Below, piece by piece: positions 1 through 32,649 of a stretch of DNA of 40,870 nucleotides. Numbering within the stretch: position 1 is the first letter of the stretch; every line of letters begins with the position of its first letter. The stretch comes from Candidatus Polarisedimenticolia bacterium (GTDB taxonomy: Bacteria > Acidobacteriota > Polarisedimenticolia > Gp22-AA2): NCBI GenBank assembly GCA_036001465.1, contig DASYUH010000014.1:1-40870 (forward strand), read 5' to 3'. The position numbers and the translations under genes are program-made. Below the pieces are notes generated by a model, which was given only the letters and a program-made list of their open reading frames with translations, did no database searches and was not told where the DNA came from.

Positions 1-40
1 CCTCCGCGCGGGCGGTAAGCATCGCCAATCGGGAACGGCC

Positions 41-137
41 GCCGAACTACCGGTTGCAGGCGGCGGTGGGCGGGTTGGGAGGTGCTGGGCCGGCGCGTTG
101 GGCGTTCGCCCCCCGCGCCTGAACCGGGGCGTTGGGC
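41..137 (+). other. attC site 1
   Basis: The left box gccgaac (41-47) pairs imperfectly with the right box gttgggc (131-137). The inner arms (cggttgcaggcg and cgcctgaaccg) are inverted copies. It belongs to the sub-family that recurs in decayed form at 8166 and 8749. It closes a cassette whose gene lies left of the window. Confidence 0.85.
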
Positions 138-186
138 GGACAGAATGAGGAGAGACATTGCGTAGGGGCCAGCTTCTCGTGAACCA

Positions 187-597
187 ATGAGACGCGAATA
201 CGATTTCAGCCGGGCAGTACCTCTCCATCCGCAGCAAAGCCATCGCCGCCGTGTGCCCCGGCAGCGGGTCGGTCGAAAGCAACCGGGCAAGCCGGCGTTC
301 CAAGAACCTGAGCCTAAACTCACGAAGGAATGGCTCCGTGAGCTCAAGCGTCGGGTTGCGGATCTCAAGGACCCTGTCCGATACTTGCTCGTAAGTGACC
401 TCGGCCGGCGACCAACGTTCTTCTACGACGTGGCGGACGGGGTTTATGCTTGGAATTGCCCGAAGGCGGCAACGCTTTTCAAGAGTCGTGCAGCCGCGAT
501 TGCCGTGCAGAAGGTGCTCGGTCGTTCAGTCAAGGTGCTCACGTGCACGACCAAGCGATATGGCGGGAAGCGGGTATTCGCTCGATTCCTTCGGTGA
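187..597 (+). CDS. cassette-encoded basic protein of unknown function
   Basis: This gene encodes 136 residues and is the only one between attC 1 and attC 2. The start MRREYDFS resembles the opening of many small antitoxins (MRxEYDFSKA), but the rest does not. A long Arg/Lys/Pro-rich stretch (about 18-45) is followed by a compact alpha/beta-looking part (about 60-136) with YLLVSDLG, FFYDVADGVYAW and a Lys/Arg-rich C-terminus. No signal peptide or membrane segment is seen. The ATG lies 49 bases after the attC right box with no strong ribosome site. It could bind nucleic acid because of its charge, but that is only inference. I do not recognise the family. Confidence 0.65.
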   Translation: MRREYDFSRAVPLHPQQSHRRRVPRQRVGRKQPGKPAFQEPEPKLTKEWLRELKRRVADLKDPVRYLLVSDLGRRPTFFYDVADGVYAWNCPKAATLFKSRAAAIAVQKVLGRSVKVLTCTTKRYGGKRVFARFLR

Positions 598-632
598 CTG
601 GCAGTTGGTACCCTCAGCCAACCCGGGGTGCC

Positions 633-732
633 GCCCAACCACCGCATGCAGGCGACGGCGTGCGCCGTCGCAATGGGCGACAACGGCACGCGCCGCGCTG
701 GCGCCCGCCGCGCCTGATGCGGAGCGTTGTAC
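633..732 (+). other. attC site 2
   Basis: The left box gcccaac (633-639) and right box gttgtac (726-732) flank inner arms ccgcatgcaggcg and cgcctgatgcgg. The right box departs from GTTRRRY at one base (T at the second R). Confidence 0.82.
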
Positions 733-744
733 GCACAACGAATC

Positions 745-1260
745 ATGAACCTGGCTTCTAGGCTCAGGCGGCGGATCCGAATCTTGCTGATCCTATTTGT
801 GGCAGGTTTGGTAATGAGTGGCCTGACGGCATTCCCGCTCAACACCGAGCTCCGCATCCTCTGCTCGTTTCTCGACATAGACCCAGCGGCATCGCCAGAG
901 GACTACCTTGGAGGCAGGTGTTGGATCGCCACGGTTGCAGCGGCCCTCCGCGAGACGGGCACCAAATATCCGTTTCTCGCGTATGCGACCGATTGGCTCG
1001 CCTTTGCGCACTTGGTCATCGCAGTTGTTTTCATAGGGCCACTCCGCGATCCGGTCCGGAACGTCTGGGTCGTCAACTTCGGCATCATCGCGTGCGTTGC
1101 AGTCATACCACTGGCTCTCATCGCTGGCGCTATCCGGCAGATCCCATTCTACTGGCGGCTTATCGATTGCAGTTTCGGAGTTCTTGGGGTCGTTCCGCTG
1201 TTGCTGGCCCGCAGATACATTCGGGGCCTAGAGGCCATCGAAGGTGCGAGTGGCGTATAA
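745..1260 (+). CDS. orphan four-helix membrane protein
   Basis: This gene encodes 171 residues from the ATG 13 bases after attC 2, the first ATG that leaves the attC untouched. Hydrophobic helices lie at about 10-30, 80-100, 110-130 and 142-158. The stretch with AYATDWLAFAHLVIA, GPLRDPVRNVWV and LIDCSFG is typical of a widespread but uncharacterised bacterial membrane family that I have the impression of knowing only as hypothetical. The stop codon TAA lies inside the left box of attC 3 (gtaTAAc), so gene and recombination site share bases. Function unknown. Confidence 0.8.
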   Translation: MNLASRLRRRIRILLILFVAGLVMSGLTAFPLNTELRILCSFLDIDPAASPEDYLGGRCWIATVAAALRETGTKYPFLAYATDWLAFAHLVIAVVFIGPLRDPVRNVWVVNFGIIACVAVIPLALIAGAIRQIPFYWRLIDCSFGVLGVVPLLLARRYIRGLEAIEGASGV

Positions 1261-1356
1261 CTACCGCATGCAGCCGACCGCGGGCGCACCTTCAAGTCGG
1301 CATGGGCGGGCAAGTCAACGTTTCGCGCCCGCGGCAGCTGATGCGGGGCGTTAGAC
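1255..1356 (+). other. attC site 3
   Basis: The left box gtataac (1255-1261) and right box gttagac (1350-1356) flank inner arms ccgcatgcagccg and cggcagctgatgcgg. The left box overlaps the stop codon of the preceding gene. Confidence 0.85.
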
Positions 1357-1378
1357 GCCGCTTACCCAAGGAGGTTCG

Positions 1379-1831
1379 ATGAGGCATGTGGCAATCGGAG
1401 TTCTCCTCCCAGCGTTCCTGACAGCGGCATGCCATTCCGCCACCACGCCAGATCCAGCCGCTGACCGTCAGGCCATCGCTGCTGCGACCGCGCAGTTCGA
1501 GGCCGCCGAGAACGCCGGAAGTGTGGACCAGTTTCGAAGTTACTTCGCTGACGACCTAGTCATGATGGGACCCAACAAGCCACCAGTGACCGGTGGGGAC
1601 AGTGTGGCCGCCCTGATGCGGGTGTTCCACGATGCGTTCGCGGTGCAGGTTGAGTACAACAGTCAGGAGATTGTGGTGTCCGGCGATTGGGCCTTTGATC
1701 GGGGCACGGAGCATTACACGCTGACTCCGAAGGCTGGTGGCGCTCCAATCCAGAAGAGTGGCAACTACCTCTACCTGTATCAGCGTCAAAAGGATGGTTC
1801 CTGGAAACAGAGCCGAGTCATCTGGAATTAG
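1379..1831 (+). CDS. DUF4440/SnoaL-like (NTF2-fold) lipoprotein
   Basis: This gene encodes 150 residues. A strong ribosome site (aaggagg) lies 6 bases before the ATG. The N-terminus is a short signal sequence ending FLTAAC, with Cys18 as the probable lipidation site. The remainder has the cone-shaped NTF2-like layout: a helix with DRQAIAAATAQFEAAENAGSV (about 29-49), the FADDLVMMGPN turn, and C-terminal strands ending in WKQSRVIWN. DUF4440 members are ketosteroid-isomerase-like, and most have no proven reaction. A role at the cell envelope is inferred from the lipobox only. It stands alone between attC 3 and attC 4. Confidence 0.85.
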   Translation: MRHVAIGVLLPAFLTAACHSATTPDPAADRQAIAAATAQFEAAENAGSVDQFRSYFADDLVMMGPNKPPVTGGDSVAALMRVFHDAFAVQVEYNSQEIVVSGDWAFDRGTEHYTLTPKAGGAPIQKSGNYLYLYQRQKDGSWKQSRVIWN

Positions 1832-1856
1832 CAGCGATCCGTTGCGATAAGGCGGC

Positions 1857-1952
1857 GTCTAACAAGCGTTTGCAGGCGACGGTGGGTGGCAGGCTCTCAG
1901 CAGAGGGAGATCGTCCGCCTTCGCCCACCGCGCCTGAAACGCGGCGTTAGCT
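1857..1952 (+). other. attC site 4
   Basis: The left box gtctaac (1857-1863) and right box gttagct (1946-1952) flank inner arms gtttgcaggcgacggtgggtgg and ccaccgcgcctgaaac, which are inverted copies. Confidence 0.88.
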
Positions 1953-2032
1953 GGACAGGCGGCATTTTTTTGATGGCCTGTGGGACCTGTGTGACGTAGA
2001 ATTCTTGCAACAACCGATAGTCCGAGGCACCT

Positions 2033-2239
2033 ATGGTTCTCACGGTCGAGTTGGAACAGGAAGACGACGGGCGTTGGCTCGCGGAAGTCCTTGAGTTGCC
2101 GGGGGTTATGGCGTATGGCCCATCGGCGCAGGAGGCAGTCGCGAAAGCCAAAGCCCTGGCCCTTCGTGTGGTGGCCGACCGCCTCGAACACGGGGAAGCG
2201 GGTCCGGAGCTTCGGGACATCTCCTTCAAGGCCGCATGA
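2033..2239 (+). CDS. hicB: HicB-family antitoxin
   Basis: This gene encodes 68 residues with the HicB partial RNase H-like fold: a first strand MVLTVELEQEDDGRWLAEV, the conserved ELPGV turn at about 21-25, then GPSAQEAVAKAKALALRVVADRL, the helix common to HicB/UPF0150 proteins. The long C-terminal DNA-binding domain of larger HicB proteins is absent. It neutralises HicA and probably represses the pair. It precedes and overlaps hicA by four bases (ATGA), so the order is antitoxin first, the reverse of classical hicAB. A TAGAAT box at 1997-2002 could be part of a cassette-borne promoter, but no good -35 box is seen. Confidence 0.9.
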   Translation: MVLTVELEQEDDGRWLAEVLELPGVMAYGPSAQEAVAKAKALALRVVADRLEHGEAGPELRDISFKAA

Positions 2240-2448
2240 GCGAGTGGCCCAGCACCAGGGCACGCAGGGTGCTGGCGGCTCTACTCAAGATTGGCTGGCA
2301 GCTCAAGAGACAGACCGGATCCCACCGCACATTGTCCCGAGAAGGTTGGCCAGATGTGGTCTTCGCCTTCCACGATCGCGAAGAAATCGGGCCCCGCATG
2401 CTCGCGAGAATTTCCAAGCGCACCGGCCTTCGTCCCGAAGATCTCTAG
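2236..2448 (+). CDS. hicA: HicA-family mRNA interferase toxin
   Basis: This gene encodes 70 residues with the double-stranded-RNA-binding-like HicA fold. The segment GWQLKRQTGSHRTLSREGWPDVV contains the conserved G-S-H in which His31 is the usual catalytic residue. The end, REEIGPRMLARISKRTGL, is the standard HicA C-terminal helix. HicA cleaves translated mRNA in the cytoplasm when HicB is lost. Its start codon overlaps the hicB stop (ATGA), so translation is coupled. Together the pair forms one intact cassette that would stabilise the array. Confidence 0.92.
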   Translation: MSEWPSTRARRVLAALLKIGWQLKRQTGSHRTLSREGWPDVVFAFHDREEIGPRMLARISKRTGLRPEDL

Positions 2449-2460
2449 AGTTACGAAGCC

Positions 2461-2553
2461 TGCTAACTACCGGCTGAAGCTGGCGGCGCGCGGGAGGTCC
2501 GTGGCGGATGGGAGGCTGCGTACGCGCGCCGCAGCTTAGCCGGGGCGTTGGGC
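2461..2553 (+). other. attC site 5 (type-2 sub-family)
   Basis: The left box tgctaac (2461-2467) and right box gttgggc (2547-2553) flank inner arms ccggctgaagctggcg and cgccgcagcttagccgg. It is nearly identical to sites 8 and 9 through the central loop, which suggests cassettes gathered by the same integron. Confidence 0.9.
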
Positions 2554-2574
2554 GGAACTGATGGCGGTGGTAGC

Positions 2575-2979
2575 TTGAGTTGGCTGAACGTCGTGGTGCT
2601 GTTGATTCTGGGCGGCGCGTGGGTGGTGAGCTCACTCATTAAGGCGCGCGCCTCTTTGCTCCTCACACGCGAGCAGAGTAATCAAGTTAGCACAGTGTGG
2701 GGGTTGCGCCGCGCGGCCCGTATGTTGCTGGTCGCCTATGCGTGCGTGCTACTGGTTGTCCTCGGCTTATTGGGCGTGCCTTTCCGACCGGTCAATTTCT
2801 ATGTTCAGGTTGTTGTCGTGGCCGGTGTGGTGGCGTGGTCTCACGTCACCTATTTTCGAAGGCTCCGCGCACTCAACCTGCCAGCAGCCTATTTGGATGC
2901 GCTGCGACGTGCACGAATGGTCGTGTATGGTAGTTCCTTGATCTTCTTGGCGATTCTTGTTTACGAAGACGTGCGCTGA
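2575..2979 (+). CDS. small membrane protein, unknown family
   Basis: The gene encodes about 134 residues if the TTG at 2575 is used; no in-frame ATG exists before the first hydrophobic helix. An ATG at 2561 is out of frame and stops after five codons. Helices are visible at about 3-22, 43-65, 70-88 and 112-130. A charged loop (SLIKARASLLLTREQ) and the motif YFRRLRALNLPAAYLDALRRAR lie between helices. Cassette context gives no partner. The upstream frame stays open into attC 5, so an even earlier non-ATG start is possible. Function unknown. Confidence 0.65.
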   Translation: MSWLNVVVLLILGGAWVVSSLIKARASLLLTREQSNQVSTVWGLRRAARMLLVAYACVLLVVLGLLGVPFRPVNFYVQVVVVAGVVAWSHVTYFRRLRALNLPAAYLDALRRARMVVYGSSLIFLAILVYEDVR

Positions 2980-3006
2980 GGCGGCCGATACGGCTGAGAC
3001 ATGTCC

Positions 3007-3100
3007 GCCCAACTACCCGCTGCAGCCGCCGGCGGGCGGCAGGTGCAAGGTTGATTCACCTGGGACATGCGCCCGCCGCGGCTGAGCGGGAGCGTTGGGC
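3007..3100 (+). other. attC site 6 (type-3 sub-family)
   Basis: The left box gcccaac (3007-3013) and right box gttgggc (3094-3100) are perfectly complementary. Inner arms are cccgctgcagccg and ccgcggctgagcggg. Confidence 0.92.
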
Positions 3101-3149
3101 GGACCGACATCGTATGTGTGTTGTGAGGCCGTGCTTCCGGAGCTAGGCG

Positions 3150-3731
3150 ATGCGACTCAGATGGGTCATCCCGGTGGCTTTCATGACAAGTTGTGTCGGT
3201 TTTATCCCGCCGGCTACGCGACTCGCTGATCCGATGACGCGCAGTCCGGTCGACCACGAGAACTTGCGCGGCCCCTTCCCGGTAGTGGTCGTCAATGATG
3301 AACAGGCGTGGGTTGCGATGCCTGAGAATCCTCATGACGTTCCTCCCCCACCCGCCGGTGCGTCCTATCTAGTGCCGCTCGAGCGGACGCGCAGCATCGA
3401 GCGATACCTTCGAGACCACGACACGGTGCATCGCAAGAGCAGCTGGGTGCTCAATGTCCAAGCACTAGGTGTCGATCGCCAGAGAATCGAACTCTACTTG
3501 CTGGGTGATGGGTATTGGGGTGGGATCTACGAGGCGACCGCAACAACGGTCACCCCACTCTTTCGAAAAGTCACGGGGCCGGGGTTCGCCTTCATTTTCG
3601 GCTCGCTCGCCCTCTTGATGAATTCTGTAGCCTGGGCCATCGTGGCCAGTTCGTTCTGGTGGTTCAAGCGTAGGCGACAGGCCGCCCAACAACCCGCTGC
3701 AGCCTACGGCGGGCCGCACGTGCGACATTAA
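3150..3731 (+). CDS. lipoprotein-like protein with C-terminal membrane helix
   Basis: This gene encodes 193 residues. A short N-terminal signal ends FMTSC (Cys15, lipobox-like). A soluble part (about 16-145) contains a proline-rich linker (HDVPPPPAGASYLVPLERT), and a single strong transmembrane helix lies at about 150-170. The last 20 or so residues (after FKRRRQA) are encoded by the left half of attC 7: the reading frame runs through the left core box and stops inside the site at 3731. The C-terminus is therefore made from recombination-site DNA and would change if the cassette were moved. I do not recognise the family. Confidence 0.7.
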   Translation: MRLRWVIPVAFMTSCVGFIPPATRLADPMTRSPVDHENLRGPFPVVVVNDEQAWVAMPENPHDVPPPPAGASYLVPLERTRSIERYLRDHDTVHRKSSWVLNVQALGVDRQRIELYLLGDGYWGGIYEATATTVTPLFRKVTGPGFAFIFGSLALLMNSVAWAIVASSFWWFKRRRQAAQQPAAAYGGPHVRH

Positions 3732-3777
3732 ATGCAACTATGCGATCGCCCGCCGCGGCTGAGCGCGGGCGTTAGGC
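3684..3777 (+). other. attC site 7 (type-3 sub-family)
   Basis: The left box gcccaac (3684-3690) and right box gttaggc (3771-3777) flank inner arms cccgctgcagcc and ccgccgcggctgagcgcggg. The preceding gene ends inside this site. Confidence 0.9.
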
Positions 3778-3814
3778 TTCGGAGGGCCCCATGATTTTCG
3801 GGCGCCAAGTGGGC

Positions 3815-3820
3815 TAAAAT
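3815..3820 (+). promoter_or_regulatory. probable -10 box of the Phd/Doc cassette
   Basis: TAAAAT lies 18 bases before the GTG start of the antitoxin and 37 bases after the attC right box, as expected for a toxin-antitoxin cassette with its own promoter. The -35 region (about TGATTT) is poor. Confidence 0.35.
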
Positions 3821-3838
3821 GTCGGCAACGAGGCAAAC

Positions 3839-4033
3839 GTGAAGCTGACCGTCGAGGTGACCGGAGACCAGGAAAAGCAGCTGTCCGATGTGGCCCGTCG
3901 GCTCAATGTGCCGGCTGACCAGTTGGCGGCAGCGCTCGTGAGAGACTTGCTCTCTCAGCGCGAAGCTGACTTCAGCGAAGCGGCTTCGCGAGTTCTCGAG
4001 AAGAACCGAGCGCTCTATCAGCGCCTCCGCTAG
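3839..4033 (+). CDS. Phd-like antitoxin of a Doc module
   Basis: This gene encodes 64 residues, starting at GTG after a GAGG ribosome site at 3830-3833. It begins with a strand (MKLTVEVTG) followed by helices ([27 protein letters not shown]) and a flexible C-terminal helix ([19 protein letters not shown]). That layout matches the small antitoxins that precede doc genes: N-terminal dimerisation and DNA binding, C-terminal toxin capture. It is too short to assign to a named Phd sub-family. Its stop overlaps the doc start by one base. The product is expected to block the Doc kinase site and autoregulate. Confidence 0.8.
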
Positions 4034-4428
4034 TGCGGTACCTCAGCCTGACCGAGGTGCTCGACCTCCATCGTCTTGTGGTCGCGCAAACGGGCGGGGC
4101 CGAGCCGGTTTTGGACCTTCGAGGCCTCGAGTCGGCAATCGCTCAGCCGCGAGCCACATTTGAGGGCCGTGACCTTCATCCGTCGCTTGCGGACAAGGCG
4201 GCGGCGCTGTGCTATTCGCTCATCCTCAACCATCCGTTTCTTGACGGCAATAAGCGAGTCGGCCATGCGGCCATGGAAACCTTCCTGATGTTGAACGGCT
4301 ACGAGGTGCTCAGCTCCGTGGAAGAGTCGGAACGTCTGATTCTTGATGTGGCCTCAGGGCAGGTTAGCCGGGAAGACCTGGCAGAGTGGCTGAAGAAGCA
4401 TCTCGCCGAAGTTTCAGGGCGGCGGTAG
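4033..4428 (+). CDS. doc: Doc (Fic-fold) death-on-curing toxin
   Basis: This gene encodes 131 residues, starting at GTG. It has the Doc arrangement: [16 protein letters not shown], then [19 protein letters not shown], and the Fic-type core [14 protein letters not shown] (His67, Asp71, Asn73, Lys74, Arg75). Doc proteins use the K-R version of this motif to phosphorylate elongation factor Tu and halt translation. Length and motif order are normal, so the toxin should be active. It is coupled to the upstream antitoxin by a one-base overlap, and the pair forms one cassette closed by attC 8. Confidence 0.93.
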
Positions 4429-4435
4429 GTCCGAA

Positions 4436-4527
4436 GCCTAACAACCGGCGGAAGCTGGCGGCGCGCGGGAGGCCCGTGGCGGATGGGAGGCTGCGCACGC
4501 GCGCCGCAGCTTAGCCGGGCGTTAGCC
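4436..4527 (+). other. attC site 8 (type-2 sub-family)
   Basis: The left box gcctaac (4436-4442) and right box gttagcc (4521-4527) flank inner arms ccggcggaagctggcg and cgccgcagcttagccgg. The central part differs from site 5 by only a few bases. Confidence 0.93.
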
Positions 4528-4531
4528 GGAA

Positions 4532-4861
4532 TCATTTGCTCTTGTGACCAATGACCTGGGCCAACTCCCTCTGAGTGGTGCCCATGGCAAGAAGGGAGCG
4601 AATGAGAAGGTCGATCGAGACTGAAGGGTCTCCAGCCTCCATCTTGGCGATCCGCGACTGGCTCGATTTGAGCAGACGAGCCAATTGCGCTTGGGTGAGC
4701 CTGCGTCGGGCGCGGCGCTCACGAAGCCCGCGACTCAGAATGAGCTTCAGCTCGACGAGCGCCGCCTCGGCTTTGGACAGCCCGATCAGGTCACGGACTG
4801 TCCCGACCTTCCACCCCGATCGTTCCAATCGGGCTCGCTTGTCCTTCCTCATGGGGCTCAC
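4532..4861 (-). CDS. higA: HigA-type XRE antitoxin
   Basis: This gene encodes 109 residues. Residues about 45-100 form a helix-turn-helix domain: RERRARRRLTQAQLARLL, then SSQSRIAKMEAG (recognition helix), then SIDLLIRSLLAMG. The N-terminal half (about 1-40) is a charged extension with LSKAEAALVELKLIL, found in antitoxins of the Gp49/HigB class. It lies 6 bases downstream of the toxin gene and is co-transcribed with it. Reading leftward, it ends only 4 bases from attC 8, so this two-gene cassette is inserted against the direction of the rest of the array. It should bind the palindrome at 5219-5234 and repress the pair. Confidence 0.88.
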   Translation of the reverse strand: MSPMRKDKRARLERSGWKVGTVRDLIGLSKAEAALVELKLILSRGLRERRARRRLTQAQLARLLKSSQSRIAKMEAGDPSVSIDLLIRSLLAMGTTQRELAQVIGHKSK

Positions 4862-4867
4862 TCCTTC

Positions 4868-5203
4868 CTACTTGGCGTCATCGTACATTTTGAGCCGGCG
4901 TCTGCAGTCCGCAATCGTCCGGCCGGGGGTCGTGCGTGTAGTCTTTGCGAAGATGTCCGCAATGACCACGGCATCCGCATCGACTCGATACACGATTCGC
5001 CAGTCGCTTCGAGCATCCTTGACCCGCAGCTCGTGGCACCTGGGTGCAATCGTAGGCATCGGTCTTGAGTGGGGCATGCCCACCTTCCAGCCCAGCTGCA
5101 CGAGCCGCAAGAGATGGCCCGCCTCCACTCGGGCCTCGGCCGTGAAGGGCGGCGTCTTGATCTCGCCACGCAACCAGACCAGGGGTTTCCCGGGTGGGTC
5201 CAT
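4868..5203 (-). CDS. higB: HigB/Gp49-type (RelE superfamily) toxin
   Basis: The gene encodes 111 residues from the ATG at 5203; a GTG four codons earlier is the other option. The pattern PLVWLRGEIKTPPF, then EAGHLLRLVQLG, then the strand set ELRVKDARSDWRIVYRVDADAVVIADIFAKTT is that of phage-derived Gp49-like HigB proteins (RelE fold), ribosome-dependent mRNA interferases. The R-x-x-Y core (WRIVYRV) is present. The promoter upstream would start transcription only a few bases before 5203, so the message is probably leaderless, which favours the ATG. It is placed before the antitoxin, as usual for higBA. Confidence 0.88.
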   Translation of the reverse strand: MDPPGKPLVWLRGEIKTPPFTAEARVEAGHLLRLVQLGWKVGMPHSRPMPTIAPRCHELRVKDARSDWRIVYRVDADAVVIADIFAKTTRTTPGRTIADCRRRLKMYDDAK

Positions 5204-5213
5204 CGCCGCAGAC

Positions 5214-5242
5214 ACTATATGTCAGGTCTGACATGAAGTCAA
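5214..5242 (-). promoter_or_regulatory. higBA promoter with operator palindrome in the spacer
   Basis: Read on the minus strand: TTGACT (5242-5237), a spacer of exactly 17 bases, TATAGT (5219-5214). The spacer contains ATGTCAG-GT-CTGACAT (5219-5234 on the plus strand), a perfect 7-base inverted repeat that overlaps the last -10 base. A repressor bound there would block RNA polymerase, fitting HigA autoregulation. The predicted start of transcription (about 5207) is nearly at the toxin start codon. Confidence 0.8.
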
Positions 5243-5264
5243 GTAGAGTCATAGTCACGAATCC

Positions 5265-5358
5265 GGCCAACAACCGGCTGAAGCTGGCGGCGCGCGAGAG
5301 GCCCCCGGCGGATTGAGAGGCGGCGCACGCGCGCCGCAGCTTAGCAGCGGCGTTGGGT
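5265..5358 (+). other. attC site 9 (type-2 sub-family)
   Basis: The left box ggccaac (5265-5271) and right box gttgggt (5352-5358) flank inner arms ccggctgaagctggcg and cgccgcagcttagcagcgg. It closes the reversed toxin-antitoxin cassette. Confidence 0.92.
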
Positions 5359-5371
5359 TGCAGATCACGCA

Positions 5372-5785
5372 ATGAGGTACATCGTGGCACTACTGGTCGG
5401 AGCGTTTCTGGCATTCGCGGTGGGGTTGTTCGCCACGGGTGTCGGCCTGGATCGTGATCGAGCCTTCTATCCGACCGTGACAATTGTTATCGCCTCCTAC
5501 TACGCTCTCTTCGCAGTCATGGGCGCATCCACGCATGCACGCATTCTTGAGTCGCTGGTTGGCGCACTCTTCCTTGTAGTTGCAATTGCAGGCTTCAGGT
5601 CATCGCTGTGGATTGTTGTGGTTGCGCTCGCGGCACATGGCATTTTCGATCTTGGCCATGGCAGAGTCATATCCAATCCGGGAGTGCCAGGTTGGTGGCC
5701 AGAGTTCTGTCTCACGTACGACGTAACGGCAGCCGGGTACCTGGCGTGGTTGCTCAAGAGCGGGCGCACCCGGGCTGCAACCTGA
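5372..5785 (+). CDS. orphan membrane protein, four helices
   Basis: This gene encodes 137 residues, with the ATG 14 bases after attC 9. Helices are at about 3-23 (VALLVGAFLAFAVGLFATG), 33-50, 58-90 (two close helices) and 112-128. A conserved-looking loop, AHGIFDLGHG, followed by GVPGWWPEFCLTYDVTAAGYLAW, recalls a membrane family common in environmental bacteria without known function. The stop codon TGA (5783-5785) lies inside the left box of attC 10. No partner gene is in the cassette. Confidence 0.8.
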   Translation: MRYIVALLVGAFLAFAVGLFATGVGLDRDRAFYPTVTIVIASYYALFAVMGASTHARILESLVGALFLVVAIAGFRSSLWIVVVALAAHGIFDLGHGRVISNPGVPGWWPEFCLTYDVTAAGYLAWLLKSGRTRAAT

Positions 5786-5882
5786 CTGCGGCTCGCAGCC
5801 GACCGACGACACGCTTCTCTTGCGAGCATGGTGCTCGCAGTCGCCGGTGCGCGCCGCCGGTGGCTGAAGCCGAGCGTCAGGC
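5780..5882 (+). other. attC site 10 with GAC/GTC core boxes
   Basis: The left box acctgac (5780-5786) and right box gtcaggc (5876-5882) pair with each other, but both carry G-C in place of the A-T pair of the invariant AAC/GTT triplet. Inner arms gcggctcgcagccgacc and ggtggctgaagccgagc are inverted copies. Confidence 0.75.
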
Positions 5883-5912
5883 GACTTGAGTGAAGCGTAG
5901 GAGAATCAGACC

Positions 5913-6476
5913 GTGAACCATTTGGGTTACTTGAGCCTGGGTGTGCTCGGAGCCGTGTTGCTTGTACGCCCATCGGCCCTGCTTGCCTCCAGAGAGCAGG
6001 GGCGCGACCTCGAGCGACCTCGACCGGTGGTTCTCACATCGGGTCGGCCTGAAATCCCAAATCTCGTAATCGATCTGCCTCCCGGGCATAGGCTGGATGT
6101 CGAGCGATCCAAGGAGGCAACCGTCTATCACCTCACGCTGGAAACGTTGAGCTGCATTGCATCCGATGGAGCCCACGTGCATGTGTATGTCGGACCATCG
6201 CCCAAGCTCCTGGCGCCCAGCTTCGAAGGCTCCGTGAATCACCGGGAATATCCGATCGGCTCGGAACGAGTCCTTTGGTCGGTATGGGTTTCGGAGGAGG
6301 ATGGAATACCGACCATGAACTACGAGGCGATCGTCGATGGACTCTTCGCGACCGGGTCACCCTCCTCGCCGGAGCATGTGCGTGGTCTAAAGGTGCATTT
6401 GTTGCTGACAGCGGGCTCGGAGGGCACGACCCGTCAGGTCCTTAGGGTGGCCTCGACTCTGCGAGCCATGCAGTGA
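5913..6476 (+). CDS. secreted protein of unknown function
   Basis: The gene encodes 187 residues from a GTG preceded by TAGGAG (5898-5903). An N-terminal signal sequence (about 1-25, LGVLGAVLLVRPSALLAS) is followed by a soluble domain of mixed strands: IPNLVIDLPPGHRLDVERS, TVYHLTLETLSC, AHVHVYVGPSP, VLWSVWVSEE. The C-terminal part HVRGLKVHLLLTAG and RQVLRVASTLRAM suggests a beta-sandwich-like domain ending in a helix that reports on a residual error or score; similar layouts occur in lipid- or stress-related secreted proteins. I cannot assign a family. It lies directly after attC 10. Confidence 0.7.
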   Translation: MNHLGYLSLGVLGAVLLVRPSALLASREQGRDLERPRPVVLTSGRPEIPNLVIDLPPGHRLDVERSKEATVYHLTLETLSCIASDGAHVHVYVGPSPKLLAPSFEGSVNHREYPIGSERVLWSVWVSEEDGIPTMNYEAIVDGLFATGSPSSPEHVRGLKVHLLLTAGSEGTTRQVLRVASTLRAMQ

Positions 6477-6518
6477 GCCCGTAATGTACAGACATCGGGG
6501 GAGGAGGGAGACAGCAGG

Positions 6519-6690
6519 ACGCCCAAAATCAAAGTGAACGATATCACCATGAACTACGATCAGCAGGGAACCGGAGAGCCGCTGATCCTGACCCTGCCCG
6601 CCCGCTCCCATCCATGAAAAGGTGGAGGAGTTCAACCGTAAGACTTTGGAGTTTCTGCAGCGGCATTCCGGGCAGGAGAACAGGGGAGCC
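6519..6690 (+). pseudogene. alpha/beta-hydrolase remnant, interior deleted
   Basis: Only the two ends of a hydrolase survive. From 6519 the frame reads KIKVNDITMNYDQQGTGEPLILTLPA, with ACG where a start ATG is expected, and it is the typical N-terminal strand pair of the fold. After RSHP it meets TGA. In another frame, beginning about 6604, APIHEKVEEFNRKTLEFLQRH is the standard C-terminal helix of the same family. The catalytic Ser, Asp and His regions are all missing. The remnant ends at the start of the next gene, so the reading frame of that gene opens 5' within it. Confidence 0.75.
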
Positions 6691-6693
6691 GAC

Positions 6694-7394
6694 ATGAGAA
6701 TCGGAGTCATCGGCGCCGGAAGCATGGGAGGGATACTTGCACGCCACCTCGCCAAGCTCGGCCATCACCTCACGATTGCGAACTCGAGAGGACCTGAGAG
6801 TCTGACCGCGTTGGCGGCCGAGATCGGCGCGACCCCCGCTTCCGTTGTCGACGCCGCCAAAGCCGGAGAAATCCTCATCCTTGCCATCCCAACGAAGGCC
6901 GTCGCCGATCTTCCGCGGGGGCTGTTTGCCAACGTGCCGAGCAGCGTCGTCGTAATCGATATCGGCAACTATCATCCCGAGCTTCGCGATGGCCACATCG
7001 CTGCGATCGACCGGGGCACGCTCGACAGCCAGTGGGTCGCCCAGCAGATCGGGCATCCCGTGATCAAGGCGCTCAACAACATTTTCGCCAAGAGCCTTCT
7101 TGAAAAGGGCGTACCTCGGGGAACGAGGGGGCGGATTGCTCTCTCGGTCGCGGGCGATTCGTCGGACGCCAAGGCAGCAGTGCTTCGCCTCGTCGACGAT
7201 CTTGGCTTCGACCCTGTCGACGGCGGGGCTCTGGACGACTCCTGGCGGCAGCAGCCCGGAACGCCAGCTTACTGCCGCGATCTTGAAGCCGCCGCTCTCC
7301 GGCGCGCGCTCGCCGAAGCTGACCGGAGCCGCATCGCCGAATACCGCGCCGAACAGGAGGCCCGTATCAGAAAGTCATTGTTTAGGAGGAGAAC

Positions 7395-7398
<4 letters not shown>
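6694..7398 (+). CDS. NADP-dependent F420-type oxidoreductase (NAD(P)-binding)
   Basis: The gene encodes 234 residues from the ATG at 6694; the upstream open frame belongs to the hydrolase remnant. [24 protein letters not shown] is the Rossmann strand-turn-helix with GxGxxG, and [10 protein letters not shown] supplies the Ser-Arg that favours NADP phosphate. [14 protein letters not shown] and [13 protein letters not shown] are the next strands. [13 protein letters not shown] and [28 protein letters not shown] match the reductase family that includes F420:NADP oxidoreductase and eukaryotic STEAP reductase domains. Whether F420 is used cannot be told. It overlaps the next gene by four bases (ATGA). 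Confidence 0.88.
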
Positions 7399-7814
<416 letters not shown>

Positions 7815-8024
7815 GGCAAGTCGCCAGTCCGTCCTCACAATGGCCCGGCAGGTGCAGTACGACGGATCGCCCGCCGGCCGGCCGCAGACGCGACAGGACT
7901 GAATGCACGCCATCTCCGCCCCCTGGCGCGAATTCGGCTGGACCCGCATCCGAGCAGCGCCCGCGGAGCTGGCTGGTCCAGATCGGGTCCGGACGCAAAG
8001 GCCGTGCCGAGGGATCGTGAGGCG
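7815..8024 (+). other. gene-free stretch before attC 11
   Basis: I see no supportable gene here. A 74-codon frame from 7903 has no family resemblance or ribosome site, and a minus-strand frame over 7269-8075 is a codon-bias shadow. With attC sites 11 and 12 it makes a 463-base gap between genes (7815-8277). It may be the decayed body of a former cassette. Confidence 0.5.
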
Positions 8025-8117
8025 GCCTGACAATCGGATGAAGATGTCGAGGTGCGCTCTCGCCCGTGCAATCATTGATCTCGTTGCGCCTCGCAGCTTA
8101 TCCTTGATGCGTCAGGC
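8025..8117 (+). other. attC site 11 with GAC/GTC core boxes
   Basis: The left box gcctgac (8025-8031) and right box gtcaggc (8111-8117) are perfectly complementary but have GAC/GTC instead of AAC/GTT. The left arm aatcggatgaagatgtcg and right arm cgcctcgcagcttatcc align with type-2 attC sites. A further R'-like gttaatc at 8143-8149 hints at more attC debris. Confidence 0.7.
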
Positions 8118-8165
8118 AGGAAGCTGACGACTGACATGTGGCGTTAATCCAATTGCCGAAGAGCT

Positions 8166-8254
8166 GCCGATTACAGGCGACGGTGGGCGGATCGGGAGGT
8201 GCTGGGCCGGCACGTTGGGCATTCGTCCACCGTTCCTGACCCCTGGCGCTGGCC
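8166..8254 (+). other. attC site 12 (degenerate)
   Basis: It aligns with attC 1 along its length (gcaggcgacggtgggcgg, gggaggtgctgggccggc, cgttgggc), but the core boxes have decayed to gccgatt (left) and gctggcc (right). It starts only 48 bases after attC 11. Confidence 0.7.
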
Positions 8255-8277
8255 GGAGAAAGTGAAAGGGGCCGCAC

Positions 8278-8754
8278 ATGATGGGTTTCCAGCTGCTCAT
8301 ACTTGCCGCTCTGGTCTCGTCCGCAGCGAGCGGTGGCGAACGTCTCCAGAAGGTGCGGGACGAGCGTCTCGAGTACGTCCTAGCCAATGTCCAGATTGTG
8401 AAAGAGACATCAGCTCGAGAGTCGAAAGCTCTACGCGTTCGCATCCTGAGCGTTCCGGAACACGGTGAATGCGACGAGACTTCTGAGAGCTGTCCGAAGG
8501 CCGAACTGTTCGTCGCTGTTTCTGGGTTCGACGAATACCCGGATCAGCGCGTTTATCAACTCCCCAGGAGACACCAATGGCGGTTCGTGCGGTGAGATCA
8601 TTTTCCTACCGAAGACGGCCCGAACGACTACGTTGAATGCACACTCGAGGCTGATGATCCGATAGTTCAACCGGCGGATAAATGGTGGCGGGCCGTGCGC
8701 TATCGTCTCAAGGTGAACTATCGTGACGGCAGGATTTTCGTGCAGGCCGGCTAG
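8278..8754 (+). pseudogene. secreted cassette protein broken by an in-frame stop
   Basis: The frame opens at ATG 8278 after AAGGGG and encodes a signal peptide (GFQLLILAALVSSAASG) and a soluble domain with a two-cysteine loop (GECDETSESCPKAELFV). It meets TGA at 8593-8595 after 105 residues. The same frame then stays open for 52 more codons to TAG at 8752-8754 with protein-like sequence: DHFPTEDGPNDYVECTLEAD, WWRAVRYRLKVNYRDGRIFV. A single TGG-to-TGA change would explain the break (FVRWDHFP restored). The final stop lies in the left box of attC 13. A double frameshift is a less simple explanation. Family not recognised. Confidence 0.72.
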
Positions 8755-8845
8755 CAGCCGGTTGCAGGCGACGGTGGGCGGGTTGGGAGTTGCCGGGCGG
8801 GCACGTCGGGCTTTCGCCCACTGCGTCTGAACCGGGGCGTGAGCC
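8749..8845 (+). other. attC site 13 (partly degenerate)
   Basis: The left box is ggctagc (8749-8755) and the right box gtgagcc (8839-8845), both off consensus. The inner arms agccggttgcaggcgacggtg and cactgcgtctgaaccgg place it in the sub-family of attC 1. Confidence 0.7.
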
Positions 8846-8863
8846 GGACAGACAGGGTTGTGA

Positions 8864-9187
8864 ATGACGACCGACACATTGCTTCGGCTTCAATTCTGGT
8901 ATGTCGCCGCCTGCAACGGTGACTGGGAGCATGAGCATGGTGTCCAGGTTGAGAGCCTCGATAACCCAGGATGGTTGGTCACGATCGATTTGGCCGGCAC
9001 AACTCTCGAGTCGGAAACGTTTCAGGAGGTCTCTGATTTGGCTCCCAAGGTCGACTGGGTGCGATGTTGGATAGAAGGTGGCAGGTTTCGAGGGGCTGGC
9101 GGGCCGCTGATGCTCGGCCGAATCATCGATATTTTTCTGGGTTGGGCTGAGCGCCATGACCGCCCACGGCAGCAGACCGACGAATGA
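8864..9187 (+). CDS. Imm53-type immunity protein
   Basis: This gene encodes 107 residues. The line LQFWYVAACNGDWEHEHGVQ followed by VESLDNPGWLVTIDLAGTTLE matches the Imm53 pattern (W-Y-x-x-x-C-x-G-x-W-E-H-x-x-G and a T/S-L-D-N-P-G-W strand). The second half (DWVRCWIEGGRFRGAGGP, LGRIIDIFLGWAE) also fits. Imm53 proteins are predicted cytoplasmic antidotes to polymorphic toxins delivered by contact-dependent or type VI/VII systems. No toxin gene is nearby, so this is an orphan immunity gene carried as a single-gene cassette, which could protect against neighbours' toxins. The assignment rests on motif recall. Confidence 0.78.
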   Translation: MTTDTLLRLQFWYVAACNGDWEHEHGVQVESLDNPGWLVTIDLAGTTLESETFQEVSDLAPKVDWVRCWIEGGRFRGAGGPLMLGRIIDIFLGWAERHDRPRQQTDE

Positions 9188-9245
9188 TTAACGCATGAAT
9201 CGGCATTCCGCGCCCGCCTGCCGCGGCTGAGCGGGAGCGTTGGGC
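9186..9245 (+). other. truncated attC site 14
   Basis: The right half cgcctgccgcggctgagcgg with box gttgggc (9239-9245) is intact type-3 attC. The left side keeps only the box gattaac (9186-9192) and about ten bases of arm, so the site is 60 rather than about 94 bases and lacks most of its left arm. Confidence 0.7.
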
Positions 9246-9371
9246 GGCACGGAGACGTCCGGTGTGAATCGTGGATAGAGCTGCCATCATGCGATGTTCC
9301 CGTCGGGTGGACGCTCAGAATCCTGCCGTCATCGGCGACTGCAAGGGTCGGTGAATCGCGGGCGCTGGTCG

Positions 9372-11621: not shown

Positions 11622-11722
11622 CGGTCGAACCGGGACGGCGCCCGCGGACAGGCGCCGTGACGATTCGCCCGCGGCGCCCGATGCCGGTTCGCGATCCGCA
11701 GCTCAGCCGGAGCGTGGGGCGG
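11622..11722 (+). other. attC relic A
   Basis: The bases 11698-11722 (gcagctcagccggagcgtgg...) match the right arm plus box of attC 5 at 22 of 25 positions by eye. A possible left box gtcgaac lies near 11626, but the left arm is unclear. Confidence 0.5.
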
Positions 11723-12624: not shown

Positions 12625-12719
12625 ACCTGACAAAGCGGCCCGTCCGTCGTACGATGCGTGTCGTACCGAGGGGCACGCATGCGCGATCTGATCACCGCGG
12701 CTGAGCGGGAGTGTCGAGC
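12625..12719 (+). other. attC relic B with GAC/GTC core boxes
   Basis: The right arm accgcggctgagcgggag (12694-12711) matches type-3 attC sites almost exactly and is followed by gtcgagc (12713-12719). The left box acctgac (12625-12631) lies 95 bases away, the normal distance. Again GAC/GTC replaces AAC/GTT. Confidence 0.6.
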
Positions 12720-12775
12720 GCAACCACAGGTCAGGAACGCGGGACAGGCTGGCGCAATCAACCCCGGATGAGGCG

Positions 12776-13171: not shown

Positions 13172-13228
13172 GGTGGCTGCGCGCGGGCGTCCGCGCTCGA
13201 CTGCCGCGGGTCAAGCGGGGCGCCAGCC
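13172..13228 (+). other. attC relic C (right part)
   Basis: The run tcaagcggggcgccagccgg resembles the right end tgaaccggggcgtgagccgg of attC 13, with gccagcc (13222-13228) in place of the box. The left half is not recognisable. Confidence 0.4.
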
Positions 13229-13247
13229 GGACAAGGACGACGTATTG

Positions 13248-13937
13248 ATGGTCTCCGGGTCAGAAGGACTCAAACGCCTGCGAGAGGGGAACCGTCGCTT
13301 TGTGTCGGGCGTTCGGAGCAGCGACACACTCGCGAGCCCGGTGCGCCGCGGCGAGCTGGCGGCAGGCCAGGAGCCGTTCGCCATCATTCTTGGATGCTCC
13401 GACTCGCGGGTGCCGGCCGAAATCGTGTTCGATCAAGGCCTTGGTGACCTGTTCGTCATCCGTGTCGCCGGAAACATCGTGGCCCCTTCCCAGGTCGGCA
13501 GCGTCGAGTTCGCCGCGGAACGGTTCGGTACACGACTCGTCGTGGTGCTGGGCCACTCCCAGTGTGGAGCTGTTCAGGCCACCCTGGAGGAGCTCGGGCG
13601 CCCGTCGGAGAGCCAGTCACGGAACCTCCGTTCGATCGTTGACCGTATCCGGCCGTCGGTGGAGGCGTTGCTGGCGACAGAGGTTGGGCCGCACCCGGGC
13701 GCTCTGTTACGGCAGGCCGTTCGGGCCAACATCCGCGTCTCGGCAAACCACCTCCGGCACGGATCGGATGTCCTGGAGCGGTTGATCCAGGCCGAGGGGC
13801 TCCTCGTCGTCGGAGCCGAGTATTCGCTGGAGACGGGAGTCGTGGAGATTTTCGACGGCGTACCGGGCGCCGGGAAACGCCGGCTGAAGAGGACGGCGCC
13901 CGGGAGGTCGGTGGCGGAGGCGCAGCGGCGCACATGA
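13248..13937 (+). CDS. beta-class carbonic anhydrase
   Basis: The gene encodes 229 residues from the ATG at 13248. It hydrates CO2 to bicarbonate in the cytoplasm. Zinc ligands and the dyad are intact: LGCSDSRVP gives Cys50, Asp52 and Arg54; VVVLGHSQCGAV gives His103 and Cys106. GLGDLFVIRVAGNIV and GSVEFAAERFG are standard beta-CA segments, and VVGAEYSLETGVVEIFD is the usual last strand. The final 17 or so residues (after GAGKRRLK) are encoded by DNA that aligns with the left arm of type-2 attC sites, so the C-terminus appears to have been extended into a decayed attC. It overlaps the next gene by four bases. Confidence 0.93.
   Translation: MVSGSEGLKRLREGNRRFVSGVRSSDTLASPVRRGELAAGQEPFAIILGCSDSRVPAEIVFDQGLGDLFVIRVAGNIVAPSQVGSVEFAAERFGTRLVVVLGHSQCGAVQATLEELGRPSESQSRNLRSIVDRIRPSVEALLATEVGPHPGALLRQAVRANIRVSANHLRHGSDVLERLIQAEGLLVVGAEYSLETGVVEIFDGVPGAGKRRLKRTAPGRSVAEAQRRT
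13877..13922 (+). other. attC relic D (left half, inside a coding region)
   Basis: The stretch beginning ccggctgaag and running through cgggaggtc and gtggcgga matches the left arm and centre of attC 5 at about five positions in six. The right half is missing. It now encodes the tail of the carbonic anhydrase. Confidence 0.55.
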
Positions 13938-14329
13938 GCATCGAGCATGCGATCCGGCGCGTCGTCGAAGAGCTGGTCGAAGCCTGGAATCGTGGTGACG
14001 GCCCTTCCTTCAGCCGACTGTTCGCCGAGAACGCTGACTATGTCACCGCGTCGGGGGTTCGTCTGGCGGGACGCGGTCGGATTCGCGATGCCCTGTTCAC
14101 GCGTCCACCCGCCTCCGCCGAGTCTGGCCGGGTGTCGCTCGTGACGGAATCCGTCAAGATGCTCGGTCCGGACGCTGCGGTCATTCTCTGCGCGTGGCAC
14201 ATGGACCCGGGACATGCGCCAGAGATCCGCGAGTCAAGCGTTCGCACCGGTTTCGTGACCCTCGTTATGCAGGGAGAAGCTGACGGGTGGCGTATCATCG
14301 CGCTGCAGAATACGGACACAACATCGTGA
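13934..14329 (+). CDS. SgcJ/EcaC-type NTF2-like protein
   Basis: This gene encodes 131 residues. The N-terminal helix AIRRVVEELVEAWNRGDGPSFSRLFAENADYVTASG and the following strand with GVRLAGRGRIRDAL are diagnostic of the SgcJ/EcaC/DUF4440 branch of the NTF2-like fold. VSLVTESVKMLGPDAAVILCAWHM, SVRTGFVTLVMQGEADGWRIIALQNTD completes the curved sheet. No signal peptide, so cytoplasmic, unlike the lipoprotein relative at 1379. It is coupled to the carbonic anhydrase by an ATGA overlap that was created across the attC relic. Reaction unknown. Confidence 0.88.
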   Translation: MSIEHAIRRVVEELVEAWNRGDGPSFSRLFAENADYVTASGVRLAGRGRIRDALFTRPPASAESGRVSLVTESVKMLGPDAAVILCAWHMDPGHAPEIRESSVRTGFVTLVMQGEADGWRIIALQNTDTTS

Positions 14330-14401: not shown

Positions 14402-14488
14402 GCTTATGAGCTGCAGGAGCCGTAGCAGCGACCGAGGCGCGACCGCCTCGCTGCGTTGACGCGCCGCGGCGGAGCGGGAACACCGGCG
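14402..14488 (+). other. attC relic E
   Basis: The right arm cgcgccgcggcggagcggga (14459-14478) matches type-3 sites, and the left has gcttatgagctgcaggagc in the proper place. Both core boxes are lost. A 19-codon frame from ATG 14350 (MRNMTVVTGAVLRS) runs into the relic and may be the stump of a deleted gene. Confidence 0.5.
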
Positions 14489-16739: not shown

Positions 16740-16830
16740 CGGGCGCGGGATGGAATCATCGGGGGCATGCGCCCCATGCGGGTGACGGGAGACACGGGCC
16801 GCTTCGTCGGGCCTTTCGCGAGGAGGTTGA

Positions 16831-26087: not shown

Positions 26088-26479
26088 AGCCGAGGATCAG
26101 CGTTGCGACAGGAACGCCCTGGGAGCCGCTGGTGGGCTACGCCCGGGCGGTCCGCGTGGGGCGCCATGTGTACGTCTCGGGGACGACGGCCACCGATCGG
26201 GACGGACGCGTCGTCGGGACCGGAGACCCGCACGCCCAGGCCGTGCAGACCCTCCGGAACATCGAGACGGCGCTGCGGCGGGCCGGCGCCCGTCTCGAGG
26301 ACGTGGTGCGCACCCGCATCTATGTCACCCGCATCGACGACTGGCAGGCGATCGGCCGCGCGCACCGTGAGTGCTTCGGAGCGGTCAGGCCGGCCACCAG
26401 CATGGTCGAGGTGAGCCGGTTGATCTCCCCCGAGATGCTCGTCGAGATCGAGGCCGAGGCGATCGTCTCCACGGAATGA
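26084..26479 (+). CDS. RidA-family (YjgF) protein
   Basis: This gene encodes 131 residues. PWEPLVGYARAVRVGRHVYVSGTTATDRDGRVVG, then DPHAQAVQTLRNIETALRRAGARLEDVVRTRIYVTRIDDWQAIGRAHRECFGAVRPATSMVEVSRLI, is a full RidA domain, with Arg112-type position in VRTRIYV replaced in register by R-T-R. RidA proteins deaminate reactive imines or sense them as trimers. The S/T and the Arg for carboxylate binding are retained. It overlaps both neighbours (GTGA, ATGA), forming an operon with the GNAT gene and the next secreted enzyme. Confidence 0.9.
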   Translation: MKPRISVATGTPWEPLVGYARAVRVGRHVYVSGTTATDRDGRVVGTGDPHAQAVQTLRNIETALRRAGARLEDVVRTRIYVTRIDDWQAIGRAHRECFGAVRPATSMVEVSRLISPEMLVEIEAEAIVSTE

Positions 26480-27375
26480 GGCCGGCGCTGCGGGCCCTCT
26501 CGGCGGCGGTGGCCCTCGCGGTCGCGGCCGGCCTGGCAGTCCCCTTCGACCGGCCCGCGGCCGCCCCCGGCCTCCCTTCCGTCGATCCGACCGCGGCCTG
26601 GCGGTCGCTCGAGCCCGGCCTCGATCTCGGAGAGTTCCTCTCCCCCCGCCGCTCCGATCGCGGCGACTCGATCGTGCGTGTGCTGCGCGCCGATCCTCTG
26701 CGATTCGAGCTGCGCCTGCTCAACGCCTCGGCCCCGGGGCAGGGGAGGGCGCTGACGGCGCGCGAGTGGTCCCTCCGGGGCGGCCTGGCGGGGGCGATCA
26801 ACGCCAGCATGTATCAGGCCGACCACCGGACCAGCGTGTCCCTGATGCGGACCTCGATCCACACCAACAACGGGAGGCTCTCGAAGGACCGGGCGATCCT
26901 CGCCTTCGAGCCGAAAGACGACAAGGCCGCGCCCGTCCTGATCATCGATCGGGAGTGCGACGACTTCGAGGCGCTGCGCGGGCGCTACGGGACGCTGGTC
27001 CAGAGCATCCGGATGCTGTCGTGCAAAGGGGAGAACGTCTGGAGCCAGCAGCCGCGTCGCTGGAGCGCCGCGGCGATCGGCACCGACGATCGGGGTCGGG
27101 TGCTGTTCGTCCACGTGCGCTCGCCCTACAGCGTGCACGACCTGATCGGCATCCTGAAGGACCTGCCGCTGGGCCTGTCGCGGATGCAGTACGCCGAGGG
27201 GGGCCCGGAGGCGCAGCTGTACGTGCGGAGCGGCGGGGAGGAGCACGAGTGGATCGGCAGCTACGAGTCGGGGCTCTCCGAGGACGACGACAACCGGGTC
27301 GCCTGGCCGGTGCCGAACGTCGTCGGGATCGCCCGACGGGCGGGCGTTCCCGCCGGCGTCCCGGGGCCCCGCTGA
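26476..27375 (+). CDS. secreted phosphodiester glycosidase-like (NAGPA) protein
   Basis: The gene encodes 299 residues from the ATG that overlaps the RidA stop. Signal peptide: RALSAAVALAVAAGLAVP. The body contains AWRSLEPGLDLGEFLSP, then GDSIVRVLRADPLRFELRLLNAS, AGAINASMYQADHRTSVSLMRT, GTDDRGRVLFVHVRSPYSVHDLIGIL and LGLSRMQYAEGGPEAQLYV. That order (N-[AG]-S-M/F-F/Y then D/E-G-G-x-S/P-A) is that of the NAGPA/phosphodiester-glycosidase domain. In the usual family the end is D-G-G-x-S; here E-G-G-P-E-A is retained with changes, so activity is uncertain. Located in the periplasm or outside. Confidence 0.82.
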   Translation: MRPALRALSAAVALAVAAGLAVPFDRPAAAPGLPSVDPTAAWRSLEPGLDLGEFLSPRRSDRGDSIVRVLRADPLRFELRLLNASAPGQGRALTAREWSLRGGLAGAINASMYQADHRTSVSLMRTSIHTNNGRLSKDRAILAFEPKDDKAAPVLIIDRECDDFEALRGRYGTLVQSIRMLSCKGENVWSQQPRRWSAAAIGTDDRGRVLFVHVRSPYSVHDLIGILKDLPLGLSRMQYAEGGPEAQLYVRSGGEEHEWIGSYESGLSEDDDNRVAWPVPNVVGIARRAGVPAGVPGPR

Positions 27376-27447
27376 CCGTGTGCTAACATGACGGACGCGA
27401 CGCACGTGGCCGGCGGCCACGCGGCCGCGTCGCGCAGGAGACTCCCG

Positions 27448-30389: not shown

Positions 30390-30406
30390 GAGTGCCGGGC
30401 CCCCCC

Positions 30407-31354
30407 ATGGAGCAGAAAGCGCCGGTCGCGTTCGTCTTTCACGAGGACTGCCTCGAGCACGACAACGGGCCCGGCCACCCCGAGCGGCCGGAGCGGATCC
30501 AGGCCATCCGCGATCACCTGGCGCGCCGTGGCCTGCTCGATCGGCTGCTCGTCCTCCGCCCCGACCCCGCCCCGATCGATCGCATCGCCCGGGTCCACGA
30601 ACCGGCGTACATCGAGGCGATCCGCCGGGCGTGCGAGCGGGCTCCGGTGCAGCTCGACCCCGACACGGCGGTCTCGTCCGGATCCTGGAGGGCCGCCCTG
30701 CTCTCGGCGGGAGGCGCCCTGGCGGCCTGCGACGCGGTCGCCACGGGGAGGGCCCGCTCCGCCTTCGTCTGCACCCGCCCCCCCGGCCATCATGCCGAGG
30801 CGGGCCGCGCGATGGGCTTCTGCCTGTTCAACAACATCGCCCTCGCGGCGCGGCATCTTCAAGACACGCACGGCCTCGGGCGCGTCTTGATCGTCGACTG
30901 GGACGTGCACCACGGCAACGGCACGCAGCACCTGTTCGAGTCGGACCCCACGGTCTTCTACTTCAGCACCCACCAGTTCCCCTTCTATCCCGGCACCGGC
31001 TCGGCGCGCGAATCCGGCAGCGGGCGCGGCGCCGGCTTCACCTTGAACTACCCTCTTCCGGCCGGATCGGGCGACGCCGAATACATCGAGGTGTTCCAGA
31101 CCGTCCTGCGCCCGGAGATCGACCGCGTCCAGCCCGAGGCGATCCTGATCTCGGCCGGTTTCGACGGCCACCGCGACGACCCGCTCGCCGGGATGGACCT
31201 GACGGAGAAGGGGTACGCGGCGATGACGTCGATCCTGCGGGAGGCCGCGGAGAGGCATTGCGGCGGGCGGATCGTCTCCCTCCTGGAAGGAGGCTATGAC
31301 CTGAAGGCGCTCCAGGCCTCGGTCGAGGCGCACCTTCAGGCGCTGGGAGCCTAG
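30407..31354 (+). CDS. histone-deacetylase-family (acetoin-utilisation-type) deacetylase
   Basis: The gene encodes 315 residues from ATG 30407; a GTG at 30392 overlaps the ribosome site and is less likely. Zinc ligands and general base are present: PPGHHAEAGRAMGFCLFNN (His128, His129), VLIVDWDVHHGNG (Asp166, His168), SAGFDGHRDDPLAG (Asp253), and LEGGYDL. Class II-like bacterial deacetylases act on acetylated amines, polyamines or lysines; target unknown. Its stop is one base from the stop of the convergent BolA gene. Confidence 0.93.
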   Translation: MEQKAPVAFVFHEDCLEHDNGPGHPERPERIQAIRDHLARRGLLDRLLVLRPDPAPIDRIARVHEPAYIEAIRRACERAPVQLDPDTAVSSGSWRAALLSAGGALAACDAVATGRARSAFVCTRPPGHHAEAGRAMGFCLFNNIALAARHLQDTHGLGRVLIVDWDVHHGNGTQHLFESDPTVFYFSTHQFPFYPGTGSARESGSGRGAGFTLNYPLPAGSGDAEYIEVFQTVLRPEIDRVQPEAILISAGFDGHRDDPLAGMDLTEKGYAAMTSILREAAERHCGGRIVSLLEGGYDLKALQASVEAHLQALGA

Positions 31355-31355
31355 G

Positions 31356-32581: not shown

Positions 32582-32649
32582 GGACGGAGATGGTATCCCA
32601 GGGCGGGAATCGGAGGGAGGCGGACTTCCGGGAGCCGGCGCGGGCATGC

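Follow-up and report, generated by a model that had tools for sequence, protein, structure and literature searches.

The window (the whole 40,870 nt stretch analysed, one contig of the 4.58 Mb, 114-contig genome of a Candidatus Polarisedimenticolia bacterium) contains a beta-carbonic anhydrase (CA) gene whose stop codon is embedded in the start of a gene for a DUF4440/SnoaL-like protein (Table 1). Both coding regions are complete by profile comparison: the CA protein matches Pro_CA at 132 bits over positions 1–156 of 156, and the DUF4440 protein covers positions 3–125 of the 128 in TIGR02246, with a natural N-terminus (residue 4 corresponds to profile position 3). The zinc and catalytic residues of CA (C50, D52, R54, H103, and C106) are invariant in an alignment of 36 sequences. 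Comparison with the orthologue in another genome of the same genus, G001 (dN 0.12, dS 0.54), points to a CA body that is conserved and under purifying selection, and hence to a gene in use. The last 20 codons of this gene are of a different character, and resemble the left half of a type-2 attC site.

Table 1. Features of the CA-DUF4440 locus, other attC remnants, and intact attC sites used for comparison (window coordinates).
Feature	Position	Strand	Evidence or remarks
Beta-carbonic anhydrase (CA) gene, former cassette	13248..13937	+	229 aa; ATG 13248, TGA 13935-13937
attC-encoded C-terminal tail, 20 codons, KRRLKRTAPGRSVAEAQRRT	13875..13934	+	No counterpart in 89 homologues
Left half of type-2 attC (left core position, left arm, centre)	13866..13933	+	Left core decayed, right arm missing
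DUF4440/SnoaL-like gene (TIGR02246), 131 aa, fused downstream gene	13934..14329	+	Profile match
ATGA overlap (DUF4440 start and CA stop)	13934..13937	+	Sequence
Relic right half of attC 5' of CA gene	13188..13229	+	Score 34 vs. shuffle maximum 33 (n = 100), marginal
Relic right half of attC 5' of glyoxalase-like gene	12695..12720	+	Score 37 vs. shuffle maximum 32
Possible attC relic 3' of DUF4440 gene	14455..14479	+	Borderline; score 35, equalled by 1/100 shuffles
Half or degraded attC relics	9199-9247, 11687-11722, 16740-16791
Intact type-2 attC (attC 5 of the earlier note)	2456..2558	+	CM 95.4 bits
Intact type-2 attC (attC 8 of the earlier note)	4431..4532	+	CM 81.5 bits
Intact type-2 attC (attC 9 of the earlier note)	5260..5360	+	CM 84 bits

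The setting is an integron. Positions 1–9250 hold an array of cassettes, with 11 strong attC sites that all lie on the + strand; two degraded yet complete attC-like sites, at 5775–5884 (CM 31.4 bits) and 8020–8122 (CM 37.7 bits), fall outside this strong set. From ~9.2 to 16.8 kb, half or degraded sites are all that is left, and the covariance model found no intact attC between 9250 and 26000; judging from these remnants, the array has decayed at this end. Most of what remains there is attC right halves, the CA tail being the only clear left half. Backbone sequence beyond the array is common to the window and contig C57 of G001, for example at 26096–32600. An integron integrase gene (TIGR02249, 455 bits, above the family cut-off) is found on another contig of the genome, C109, followed by three attC sites reaching the contig end. 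The 31 attC model matches in the genome are spread over several contigs, with the array scattered over C109, C8, C88, C6, C22, and C14 (the window, which starts inside it), ending in or near attC sites.

Within the decayed region, the CA gene is well supported as a genuine integron cassette by comparison with G001. DNA common to the two genomes extends over 13192–13873; it begins in the preceding attC, at the right arm, and ends at the CA stop codon and left core, exactly as a cassette would be bounded. The flanking genes in G001 are different, and other segments are common to both genomes with their order changed. The relic 5' of the CA gene is marginal in the window itself; its G001 counterpart scores 17.4 bits with the attC profile described below. 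In G006, a genome of the same family, the CA stop codon falls within a complete short attC (31.9 bits). Neither G001 nor G006 has the CA and DUF4440 pairing, a different gene being found downstream of CA in each.

Close relatives of the window CA (66–82% identity; loci L013–L092) are present in very distant phyla, a distribution that suggests wide horizontal transfer of this CA family. The covariance model detected attC sites in few of these loci; an attC-like stretch spotted by eye 3' of the CA gene in one of them (L024) was not reported by the model, and was set aside.

An earlier note on this DNA had proposed that the last 17 or so CA codons consist of attC left arm and centre, and that a recombination site had thereby been turned into coding sequence. 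The attC origin is borne out, with the length revised to 20 codons. The best attC match to 13866–13933 is to a site in G003, of the same genus (G003:C78:6034–6133), with 58 of 69 positions identical (84%; BLAST E 4.6e-15). The three sites in the window which the note had singled out for comparison also align: the site at 2456 with 87% identity over 39 nt (13880–13918), that at 4431 with 78% over 54 nt (13880–13933), and that at 5260 with 75% over 55 nt (from 13880), the tail DNA being closer to other attC sites of the genus than to any of these. With a profile built from 22 type-2 sites, it scores 21.8–22.3 bits after a composition correction which subtracts 15 bits. This is far above shuffles (maximum 8.7 bits for 5000 in-frame codon shuffles, 3.4 bits for 2000 dinucleotide shuffles) and background: the next-best match across 876 kb of other loci, at 17.4 bits, is the attC right half upstream of the G001 CA orthologue, and the best after that reaches 10.2 bits. 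A search of Rfam gave no match. As a recombination site the tail DNA appears dead. In intact type-2 sites the left and right arms pair as one long hairpin, whereas the CA relic folds into unrelated local helices; and of the paired arms and two cores of a functional attC, the right arm and right core are missing and the left core is decayed.

Among 90 CA proteins compared (the window's own, within-class relatives, and most of a set of 80 from named genomes of many phyla at 66–82% identity), the median number of residues beyond the conserved core is 10, and 91% have 15 or fewer. The window CA has 30, the second longest, and its tail sequence is missing from all 89 others, the outcome expected if the tail had arisen from a cassette site as the note proposed. 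The same-genus orthologue in G001 indicates how this may have come about. VPGAG is common to both proteins, and is followed in G001 by TAA where the left core would lie: GGC TAA CAA CGC in G001, against GGG AAA CGC in the window. The simplest account of these sequences would be an in-frame loss of three bases removing the TAA in the left core, plus substitutions. A stop codon at the attC left core is frequent among cassettes of this genus; the CA-DUF4440 junction is carried by one genome only.

At the other end of the tail, attC similarity stops at 13933, one base before the DUF4440 gene starts, so that the attC apex, ...GCGCAC, runs into ATG where the right arm (GCGCGCCGCAGCTTAG...) would be expected. 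The claim that the next gene starts in the same DNA is thus correct as regards the ATGA overlap with the CA frame, but the first base of the DUF4440 gene lies just past the attC-derived stretch and not within it. By eye, the start of that gene had seemed to conceal a right half; over 13934–14020 the score was 22, equalled by 38 of 100 shuffles, and this candidate was rejected. A GGAGG sequence is found at 13916–13920, 13 bases 5' of the ATG, a longer spacing than usual. As to the DUF4440 gene itself, a survey of 396 genomes of the phylum (E 1e-20) turned up no close homologue; the protein most like its product, in G001, shows 42% identity along the whole length. The gene sits between attC relics, that on its 3' side borderline, and this position weakly suggests that it too is a former cassette. 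Of the two cassette genes said to have been joined, then, CA is the securer.

Could the tail be something other than translated attC DNA, or the junction an artifact? Coding DNA and attC arms are both GC-rich, and the profile score is corrected for composition by 15 bits, but no shuffle of either kind comes near the observed score. The 84% identity over 69 nt to a single attC, the fact that the match runs out at the attC apex, precisely where the DUF4440 gene begins, and the lack of the tail in homologues likewise speak against coincidence, which we consider negligible as an explanation. A join made by the assembler between two cassettes at a repeated attC, with no such junction in the cell, deserves somewhat more thought: with ~30 attC sites in the genome and the array split over several contigs, these sites evidently disturb assembly. 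An assembler join would, however, require a longer repeat than is available. Between the CA relic and related sites of the genome, identity is 75–87%, and the longest exact word the relic has in common with the other DNA compared is 18 nt, with none over 12 nt across the junction. A chimera is accordingly very improbable.

We conclude that the CA and DUF4440 genes very probably form a fused gene cassette, produced when a stop codon and half an attC site were lost, in the distal, decaying part of a chromosomal integron. The CA cassette would first have ended, like many in the genus, at a stop codon in or beside the left core of its own attC. In the window lineage, in-frame loss of the TAA would have let CA read on into the attC. 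The right arm, right core, and any leader 5' of the DUF4440 gene would also have been lost, in whatever order, so as to join the attC apex to the DUF4440 ATG with the CA stop codon TGA embedded in it. No relative with CA, a complete attC, and DUF4440 in succession was found, so we infer the ancestral state. The remaining half-site should be unable to form a recombinogenic hairpin, in which case integrase could not part the two genes here, and the DUF4440 gene may be translated by termination and reinitiation after CA, aided by the overlap and perhaps by the GGAGG. The genes are thus probably locked together and their translation coupled, and the CA tail may be a tolerated by-product.

How the right arm was removed is less certain, with slippage at the hairpin and aberrant integrase recombination both conceivable. 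The second would be an illegitimate event between the attC interior and a secondary site 5' of the DUF4440 gene. Section 2.4.4 of a review (PMC8876359) lists both as ways in which cassettes fuse, and the genome does encode an integrase scoring above its family cut-off, but the break is where apex and right arm meet rather than at the right-core crossover point, which slippage fits somewhat better; recombination by integrase is a possible, though doubtful, origin. A separate matter is whether the tail or the stop-start overlap has been selected, for enzyme location, partner binding, or a fixed ratio to the DUF4440 protein. ATGA-type overlaps commonly couple translation, the tail is very basic, and the purifying selection on the CA body indicates a gene in use. 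An open frame in the tail, however, needs no selection, since in 10 of the 17 type-2 attC sites translated the same frame runs without a stop as far as the right arm. The tail is also predicted to be disordered (pLDDT below 50 at residues 208–229 of the modeled structure), and the tail is found in a single genome, which leaves no comparison by which to measure selection. Selection on it is unlikely, and the tail probably matters little to the function of the enzyme.

Read-through of an attC that is still intact is a plausible intermediate on the path to the CA-DUF4440 fusion, since other frames in the genus end inside intact sites. In G003, two open frames run through an intact attC and have the same end peptide, one of 178 aa (NNRLKLTARGRSAADARLRTRAAA) and one of 83 aa (NNRLKQTARGRSVAESQRRTRAAA); these may not be genes, as neither has a recognized family. 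Cassettes with recognized domains that end inside their own attC are represented by one DUF4442 and one DUF4440 protein. The read-through frames in intact attC sites are at 4271–4807 and 274–525 in L126 (G003:C78, reverse strand), 7086–7703 in L132 (G003:C54, reverse strand), and 686–1477 in L123 (G000:C88). Two of the four carry the DUF4442 and DUF4440 domains, and the other two share NNRLK.TARGRS..(A/E)..R.RTRAAA. A bolder idea is that in this genus attC sites also serve as coding DNA: one frame of the type-2 site, often open, would give unrelated cassette proteins the same basic C-terminal peptide (NNRLKLTARGRSVAD.RLRTRAAA), and CA would have fixed such a tail after its site had died, making it a lasting and useful part of the protein. 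We think this improbable.

Class 1 integrons offer established cases of gene cassettes fused through partial loss of an attC, for example blaGES-1/aacA4 (PMC4670013), with further cases in PMC8876359 (section 2.4.4). The CA-DUF4440 pair is a clear natural example of this known phenomenon, with translation of the attC remnant as an additional feature. As in the class 1 cases, the upstream attC is partly or mostly lost, both coding regions are kept, and the pair is fixed. Coupled translation has been proposed for those cassettes, and may apply here, where the ATGA overlap is present. Unlike them, CA-DUF4440 retains the attC left half, translated as the tail of the first protein because the CA stop codon was lost; neither gene is a resistance gene; and the pair is in a decaying chromosomal array, with no intact attC behind the second gene. 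In described mobile cases the fused cassette moves by means of the attC of its second member (PMC8876359). This is a property of those cases rather than of fusion itself; CA-DUF4440 lacks such a site, and looks immobile. Coding sequence running into attC DNA is likewise familiar from cassette genes that end inside the site. The ACID procedure allows a coding/attC overlap of at most 15 bp (PMC2674596), whereas that of CA is 60 nt or more, through arm and centre, and its site is dead. Beta-CA genes, too, have been reported from clusters of attC sites without integrase, in endosymbionts of vent tubeworms, and horizontal transfer was proposed (PMC10295459). The window resembles these in having a beta-CA gene among attC sites; they are other organisms, and the part of that account drawn on here describes no tail or fusion in them.

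If the proposed route is right, this locus offers a stepwise, non-clinical example of how cassettes may become a fixed operon: a stop codon in the attC core; loss of that stop, so that translation continues into the attC; disappearance of the site's right half; and finally a stop-start overlap. The intermediate state, an intact attC that is read through, can be seen in a sister genome, so the path is open to study. A practical consequence is that attC-encoded tails will escape annotation rules which cap how far a coding sequence may overlap an attC. Elsewhere in the array, several cassettes looked by eye like toxin-antitoxin (TA) modules: 2030–2450 (HicAB-like), 3840–4428 (Phd/Doc-like), and 4532–5215 (HigBA-like, on the reverse strand). 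The first of these is common to the window and G006.
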